A stretch of DNA of 64,000 nucleotides from assembly GCF_910596095.1 (NCBI RefSeq), contig NC_056534.1, positions 11,412,990 to 11,476,989 on the forward strand. Direction: 5' to 3'. Made by a program: the position numbers and the translations under genes. The stretch comes from Thunnus maccoyii (taxonomy: Eukaryota; Chordata; Actinopteri; Scombriformes; Scombridae). The notes beneath the pieces were generated by a model. That model was given only the letters and a program-made list of their open reading frames with translations. It was not told where the DNA came from and made no database searches. Numbering within the stretch: position 1 is the stretch's first letter; the number at the start of each line of letters is the position of its first letter. Below, in pieces: positions 55,381 through 57,921 of this stretch.

Positions 55381-55610
55381 ATGACGGGCACTCAGGAGCC
55401 AGACCTGCATGAGCAGCACAGAGCACCAACGCAGGAGGAAGGGGATGAGGAGGAGGAGGGGGAGAAGGTGCATGTGTCAGTTGAGGGAGATGAGAGGGAG
55501 CAGGAGGAAAAGGAAGAGCTGCCATACCCCACTCTAGCACCAGTGGTTCTTTTGGCTCTGACCCAAACCAGCCCGCCCCGCTCCTGGTGCCTTCGAGCCG
55601 TCTGCCACCC
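55381..55610 (+). CDS. cacna1h: T-type calcium channel alpha-1 (Cav3), N-terminal exon
   Basis: The ATG at 55381 (G at -3) opens [18 protein letters not shown], an acidic Glu-rich stretch, then [20 protein letters not shown] and [12 protein letters not shown]. The last part aligns with the start of the Cav3 channels (human CACNA1G LPYPALAPVVFFYL...PRSWCLRTVCNP; CACNA1H VPYPALAATVFF...PRSWCLRLVCNP), directly before the IS1 segment. In human the following residues WFE lie on the next exon. Here the exon stops after CAC CC at 55610 and is followed by ATATCCTT, a U12-type 5' splice site. Read without splicing, the frame hits TGA 19 bases later. Exon 2 is not in the window. Similarity alone does not separate 1g from 1h; linkage with prkcb and cacng3 favours cacna1h. 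Confidence 0.8.
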
Positions 55611-55618
55611 ATATCCTT
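55611..55618 (+). promoter_or_regulatory. cacna1h: U12-type AT-AC 5' splice site
   Basis: ATATCCTT matches the minor-spliceosome 5' splice-site consensus exactly and sits at the expected Cav3 exon 1 border (phase 2 within the proline of VCxP). No GT donor fits here. Confidence 0.75.
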
Positions 55619-57921
55619 CACCTGAAGCCTGAAGCACTGTGAACATATGTGTGTTTGTACGTCTGTGTGTGTTTCTGTTTATAATATGAGAGAGATATTG
55701 TCTGTTTTTGTTTCAGCTCTGTACTTTCTCAAAGCCGTAACTACATGTCACTTAGCGCCTAGATGTTTACTTTACGTTTAAACACAAGGGAGACAGGAAG
55801 AAGGTCAGTATTGTGCATGTCCGCGTGCGTGTGTGTGTGTTTGGAGGACCTCAGGTATTTCCTTAGAACCATTAGTTGAAGGCAAGGATGGCTAACATTT
55901 TTCCCTGATTGGAGGTTTCCATAGTGACAAGCCCTAATGAATCTCCAGGGTTACAGTCGCCTGTCAGTAGCATTGTTACCGGCCTCCATTTATACAGCAG
56001 AAGGAGTCACAAATAGTAAAAACTCACGTCACCCATCGAACCTCGCCCTGCTTCTGTCTTCATCGTCTCACCTCACATTCCCCTCCCTGTCTCTCACTCG
56101 CTGTCTCAACCTCTACCCACTCCTGGTGTAGATGCGAAGGTTTGAGTGTGTCTATGTGTGTAGTTATCACCGCTGTAGTGTGTGTGTGAGCAGCTATGAA
56201 TACTCCGAAGCATGCATAAACGTCAGCAACACCTAAGGGATTTGTCAAGACTTTCTAAATTGAATATTTTCCACTGCTTGTGACTTTACGTGTGCATGTG
56301 TGTATGTGCATGTGAGTTCTGGTTGCGCGTGCGTGTGTAGTTGTGCACGTCTGCGGGTATTTGGCACCGTCAGCACTCTGTGTACTCTATAAAATATAAA
56401 TACATAATTGCTGAATAAATAAAATGTACACCAAGAGGAAAAGAAGAAAAAAAAAAAACTACAAATGCCATGAACCAAGCTCTTCTGTAGCCTGCTGGGC
56501 TGTTACCATGGTCGCATCCCAGAACATTGTACGCTCACTGTGTCAGCACTAACTTACTGGACACACTTGCAAACACACACCCACGATCTCATACACACAC
56601 ACACACATACGCGCGCACACAATCGAGCACACACGCACACACACACTCAAGCAAGTGAATGCCCTCACAAAAACGAGGGAATCTCCCATGGAGAGGCTCT
56701 TTAGAGGAATCACCTGGTTGCTTGGCAACAGCGTAGCTCTGCCCCGACGGCCCGGTTACTTCCGCTTGCAGCATTTGTTTGTTTTTGTGTGTGTTTGCGT
56801 GTCTGTCTGTCTCTCTATCTGCTTTTGTGTGCTCACAGCATGGCTACTAGCATGTGTCCCATTTTATAAAAATTCGTATATATATATATTCATATAAACT
56901 TACAATGTGTGTGTGTGTCTATGTGTGTGTGTATATTACTGTGAGTGATCTGCGGGGGAAGTAATGTGGGTGGACGTTGTTCGACAGGGACATTAATGTG
57001 AGCGCACTGGGGGGAGTGAAGGAGGGTGGGCAGTCCCCAAGAGCTGTAAGTCCCATTTTTCCTGAGGTGACCCCTCCTTCCTTTCTGCCTTTTTTTTACT
57101 CAGTACATATTACAAATTAATATCCGATCTCCTTCCTTCCATTTCCTCCCTCTTAGAAACACAGTCATCCTCCTTTGTACCATGTTTACAACATACTGTA
57201 CATCTCTCCACCCCACGGCACGTCTAACAAATTATTTGGAACAAAAACAAGATAGGCTTTTGCTATTATATAACATTTTCTTGTATTCTTTCCATTGATT
57301 TCTCTTATTAACTGTTTCTTCGGGAGGAAACGTTACTTATACTTTAAGTGTGGAACAAGGTGCCTACTTTGTGAAGTGCTGAGCTTACCATGTGGCAGTC
57401 ATCCCGCTCCTTTAATGTAACATACGACACACACAGGAACATGCGCACACGTGTGTAGAGGCGAGTGCATGTACGCACACACACACGACATAACTTATTC
57501 AGCAGTGCATGAAACATTCAGAGCATTTCCTTTTGTTTAAAGATGAGAAAAGCTGATTCTGTCACTCCTATACAAGTACCTTTCTCTGCCCGCCTTTTTT
57601 CTTCTGTTCCGTCTCTCTTTTCGTCTTTCACTCAGCCCTCGCTACTCCATATCAATCATGCTCTCTTTTCCTTTTCCTAAACTGTCTCTTAATTGGGTTG
57701 AGGTATGTGTGTGCGTGTGTGTGTGTTCGTTATGGGGGTGATAGAGAGACGATGGATTGGAGGAGGACTTATTCAAAGTAGGGTGAGCTGTCAGAATCAT
57801 TTCAGCCAATTAATATGATCCCAGAATGTGTCTCCATGGTTACCAGCTGTCAGACTCTAAGGGGGTGGAGTCAGAGGACTTGACAACTTGACAGACACTT
57901 AACTTGGTCCACCTCCACTTC

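Follow-up and report, generated by a model that had tools for sequence, protein, structure and literature searches.

The window analysed here, a stretch of 64,000 nucleotides from Thunnus maccoyii, ends inside a gene that starts as a T-type calcium channel (Cav3) alpha-1 gene, and it carries several other genes upstream. The features discussed below are the following.

1459-7041, plus strand: conventional PKC gene (best match beta, 4.5e-27; alpha close, 5.9e-26)
17369-22252, plus strand: TARP gene (gamma-3, CACNG3, 5.7e-35; gamma-2, CACNG2, 7.2e-35)
24215-24296, minus strand: tRNA-Leu (AAG) gene, 57 bits
26976-41000, plus strand: RBBP6 gene; 3' limit set by eye from RS-rich reading frames
55381-55610, plus strand: first coding exon of the Cav3 gene, from the ATG to CC (phase 2), identified by homology and with four counterparts elsewhere in the genome
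55611-55618, plus strand: U12-type AT-AC 5' splice site, ATATCCTT; the same eight bases in the same codon phase in all five Cav3 first exons found
55611-64000, plus strand: portion of intron 1 that the window covers (8,390 bp or more), with no exon 2 found in the window and channel exons downstream of it
55630-55632, plus strand: in-frame TGA that translation would meet only on retention of the intron (83-residue read-through product)

The tRNA gene was the sole match of Rfam and ARAGORN over the window.

The first coding exon

The ATG at 55381 opens a frame of 83 codons (55381-55632), whose product starts with MTGTQEP and ends with PYPSPEA. When this product was compared with all PDB chains (phmmer, E up to 10), eight distinct sequences matched, of which four are T-type channels: Cav3.1 (alpha-1G, 4.1e-9 for the better of two constructs), Cav3.2 (alpha-1H, 1.4e-8) and Cav3.3 (alpha-1I, 4.5e-5). 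The other four matches are weak, with E values of 0.16 or worse, the next after the T-type channels being Cullin-7 at 0.16. A search of Pfam with the 83 residues found no family. The likeness to Cav3 occupies the second half of the frame and extends to VCHP. The alignments with the PDB chains stop one residue after the CxP motif, at a position where the channels have a tryptophan and the frame has a tyrosine (TAT), which comes from reading through into the intron. Re-reading the sequence and its frames thus bears out what an earlier note on this DNA had described, i.e. the coordinates, the frame ending in PYPSPEA and a Cav3-like stretch that breaks off where Cav3 proteins go on with tryptophan. 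It also bears out the note's claim of a perfect minor-spliceosome donor, with AT in the place of GT, at the end of this exon.

By eye, a pyrimidine stretch with AG (cttcttttag, gttcag) lies directly before the ATG, at 55340-55362 on the plus strand. This could be the 3' splice site of an intron in the 5' UTR, in which case the gene may begin with another exon, upstream of the coding one.

The donor of intron 1 and what follows it

The donor begins at 55611, directly after CC and in phase 2, and its eight bases, ATATCCTT, agree with the 5' splice site consensus (R)TATCCTT. How much weight should such a match carry? The window holds five RTATCCTT sites on its two strands when 4.25 are expected, i.e. 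no excess over chance, and the branch-site-like motif TCCTTRAY occurs six times when 10.8 are expected, i.e. below chance. Such counts are uninformative on their own, so the evidence lies in the exact place of the donor and not in its presence. The exact octamer ATATCCTT occurs 13 times, the five Cav3 exon-1 ends included, among 694,690 positions of host DNA on both strands, or about 1.9e-5 per position. This sample is made of the window and the fetched loci, leaving aside two (L001 and L006) that overlap the window.

Exon 2 was sought in the remainder of the window. The motif TGGTTYGAR has no plus-strand occurrence in the window, its sole site being at 13039 on the minus strand; a fragment of domain I of human Cav3.1 gave no tblastn match there up to an E value of 1; and CCTTAAC is absent from both strands between 55611 and 64000. 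Together these results indicate that the acceptor most likely lies outside the window, and that intron 1 most likely exceeds 8.3 kb. Past the end of the window, the genome partly reads N where exon 2 and the acceptor are expected. Because the acceptor would then fall within the N stretch, we infer the AC end and the branch site of this gene. Further downstream, the same strand carries an exon for the pore loop of domain I (L007:1424-1720, best match Cav3.2, E 2.6e-31), then one for S6 and the beginning of the I-II linker (L007:2126-2350, Cav3.2 8.9e-27, Cav3.1 1.8e-26), and matches resembling further channel domains in the loci L007 to L009. Hence what follows the first exon appears to be a channel gene and more than a fragment.

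Which of the Cav3 genes this is cannot be read from exon 1, where naming is ambiguous: over a core of 32 residues it shares 22 with Cav3.1, 19 with Cav3.2 and 15 with Cav3.3, being slightly nearer Cav3.1. The two domain I exons are nearest Cav3.2, the second narrowly so. The order PKC, TARP, RBBP6 in the window resembles that of human 16p12; on human 16p, PRKCB, CACNG3 and RBBP6 are found together, and CACNA1H is on the same arm. From its sequence and neighbours, the window gene is likely a cacna1h-type (Cav3.2) paralogue.

Intron 1 in the Cav3 genes of the genome

We searched the host genome (782 Mb, 54 contigs), whose size, gene order and number of paralogues point to a teleost, with the frame of the window. 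This gave at least five matches with E values of 0.001 or lower: the window itself, two on contig C18 and one each on C16 and C20; the counts of this search are lower bounds. In all five first exons, CC is followed by ATATCCTT at the identical codon phase. The intron bases after these eight read CACCTGA, TTACTTA, TCATATG, CCTTAGT and TCATTTA. Apart from TCAT, which two of them share, they differ. Conservation of the eight bases read by the minor spliceosome, followed by divergence, is the pattern that a kept splice site would show. The five donors are nevertheless not independent draws, since the paralogues share ancestry.

The other end of the intron was approached through exon 2. In the plus-strand gene of C18, exon 2 was found by tblastn with the human Cav3.1 fragment, and its translation was then used as a query against the genome. 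This gave five matches, with identities of 100%, 92%, 76%, 68% and 48%, the last (E 0.12) being in the divergent gene of C16, whose exon 2 had been missed by tblastn and was first recognised by eye. The first base of exon 2, which completes the proline codon, reads A, G, C, G and G in the five genes; it is followed by TGG TTC GAR in four of them and by TTT TTT GAT in the C16 gene. Here the earlier note needs a small correction. It had exon 2 start with TGG TTY GAR, and TGG TTC GAR does stand there in four of the five paralogues, but with the intron in phase 2 the exon starts one base earlier, with N and then TGG.

Intron 1 ends in AC in all five Cav3 genes with a readable exon 2. Upstream of this AC, three genes have the branch site TCCTTAAC: the C20 gene (12 nt before the intron end), a gene on contig C2 near 7.31 Mb (15 nt) and the plus-strand gene of C18 (17 nt). 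The other two, the minus-strand gene of C18 (11 nt) and the C16 gene (12 nt), have ACCTTAAC. In these paralogues of the window gene the match to TCCTTRAC is thus 8/8 in three genes and 7/8 in two, at 11-17 nt from the end. A U12 branch site normally lies about 10-20 nt from the 3' end of the intron. As a background, we took all AC sites of the fetched paralogue sequences (n=12,295), a set that includes the real sites of the C18 plus-strand and C16 genes, and the best branch match ending 5-24 nt upstream of each; it reaches 8/8 in 0.033% and 7/8 in 0.55% of them. Overall, five donors and five acceptors of intron 1 were read, both ends in four genes, and every one is of the AT-AC U12 kind. In those four genes the intron measures 471, 41,280, 54,872 and 90,286 bp. 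For the C2 gene the 3' end was read.

Six Cav3 genes were seen in part in this genome. The sixth has its exon 2 at G000:C2:7309560-7309670 (minus strand; L036), on the same contig as the window. This exon is 92% identical to that of the plus-strand gene of C18, a likeness that makes it possible that the two are a cacna1i pair. Its exon 1 was not among the genome matches to exon 1 of the window. The C16 gene is compact and strongly diverged (L004, G000:C16:10663741-10666857, minus strand, and L029 to L033); its exon 2 is shorter than those of the other genes and reads FFDYASLLMVLLNFVPLGMYKPC, and its AT-AC intron 1 is the one of 471 bp. This gene may encode an additional T-type channel that evolves fast.

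These observations leave little room for other accounts of the exon border. One might suppose that a U2-type GT donor near the end of the homology is used, and that ATATCCTT stands there by coincidence. GT dinucleotides are indeed at hand: 15 in 55501-55700, the nearest being those at 55587 (ctg/GTGCCT), 55600 (gcc/GTCTGC) and 55639 (act/GTGAAC). Yet, by eye, none of these three is a good likeness of the major donor. Splicing at 55587 or 55600 would remove some of the residues CLRAVCHP, a stretch aligned with Cav3, and the GT at 55639 comes after the in-frame TGA. Coincidence is also difficult to reconcile with the same octamer at the same place in all five copies of exon 1 found and with AC at all five readable acceptors. 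We therefore regard a GT donor as highly improbable. An intron with AT-AC ends might instead be removed by the major spliceosome, as is the case for some U2-type introns with these ends in sodium channel genes (PMC2831892). But the AT-AC U2-type introns described there have G at position +5, where the window has C. Furthermore, the first eight bases of the intron agree with the U12 consensus given in PMC6259924 and the paralogues carry U12 branch sites, so that removal by the major spliceosome has a very slim chance of being right.

The frame is open as far as the TGA at 55630, and one could accordingly read it as a short independent gene of 83 residues ending at 55632, or as a decayed piece of a Cav3 gene. 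This is at odds with the Cav3 exons for the pore loop and S6, and the stretches resembling further channel domains, that lie downstream on the same strand, and with PDB matches that go no further than the first residue after CHP; we give such a gene or fragment hardly any credence. We are thus nearly certain that the coding sequence of a teleost-like Cav3 gene (probably cacna1h-type) begins in the window, and that its first coding exon is followed by the conserved U12-type AT-AC intron between the Cav3 N-terminus and S1 of domain I.

Consequences and known minor introns in channel genes

In the minor spliceosome, U11 and U12 bind the 5' splice site and the branch site, and U6atac then takes the place of U11. 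U6atac, the snRNA that acts as its catalyst, is encoded in the host genome (one match, on C3, at 132 bits for a gathering score of 33) and is the sole component of this machinery confirmed there. By analogy with what is established for the minor spliceosome, from which we infer splicing itself and the snRNP steps at the window gene, U11 and U12 would recognise ATATCCTT and a branch site like TCCTTAAC, and the intron would then be removed by U6atac, U4atac and U5. This would join the half-codon CC to an exon starting N TGG TTY GAR and restore the CHP-WFE junction of the channel. Were the intron retained, translation would stop after 83 residues.

The practical consequence concerns mainly annotation: a gene finder that accepts GT donors alone could lose the N-terminus of the channel or report a false gene of 83 residues. 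As for evolution, an ancient intron has kept its AT-AC form in the four Cav3 copies read at both ends, including the diverged one where it is 471 bp long. In the six Cav3 genes seen in part, all ends of intron 1 that were read are AT-AC U12, in spite of measured lengths from 471 bp to about 90 kb. One might speculate from this that the minor spliceosome is a control step shared by all T-type channels and limiting their rate, and that retained introns yield short truncated products, but we consider this unlikely.

Minor introns in such genes are well documented. Every one of the ten genes for alpha-1 subunits of voltage-gated calcium channels has at least one (PMC6865273, PMC8767276), and Cacna1h is named as one of the channel genes with minor introns that spinal muscular atrophy affects (PMC6558932). 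A U12-type AT-AC site is conserved in Nav1, Nav2, Cav1, Cav2 and Cav3 at S1 of domain I (PMC6259924, 2018), a statement repeated in PMC10120453. In the fly T-type gene (Ca-alphaT), intron 1 of 23 is AT-AC U12, and that of the human orthologue is U12 too (PMC2831892, 2010, Table 2, row 19). Section 8 of the latter paper mentions one subtype switch in fish, in Syntaxin-6. The earlier note had stated that minor introns are known in voltage-gated sodium and calcium channel genes, and had proposed that the border in the window is one of them; the donors, AC ends and U12 branch sites of the paralogues, together with this literature, support that proposal. Since a Cav3 intron of the AT-AC U12 kind is already in print in PMC6259924 and PMC2831892, the finding is correct and its kind is known: the AT-AC minor intron of the window is genuine, but other animals had already shown it in related channel genes, and current views of minor introns are unchanged by it.

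How close is the likeness? The human CACNA1 genes are stated to have minor introns in passages that give neither sequence nor position for the T-type genes (PMC6865273, PMC8767276). Drosophila Ca-alphaT has in common with the window gene the T-type channel, the first intron and the AT-AC U12 type, in a table without codon positions (PMC2831892). The closest counterpart is the site described in PMC6259924. There, the kind of gene and the position before S1 of domain I are alike, the donor ATATCCTT compares with the consensus ATATCCTTT, and the branch site TCCTTRAC and the AC end are matched by the paralogues of the window gene. The sole difference seen from the site described there is at position +9, where the window has C instead of T.
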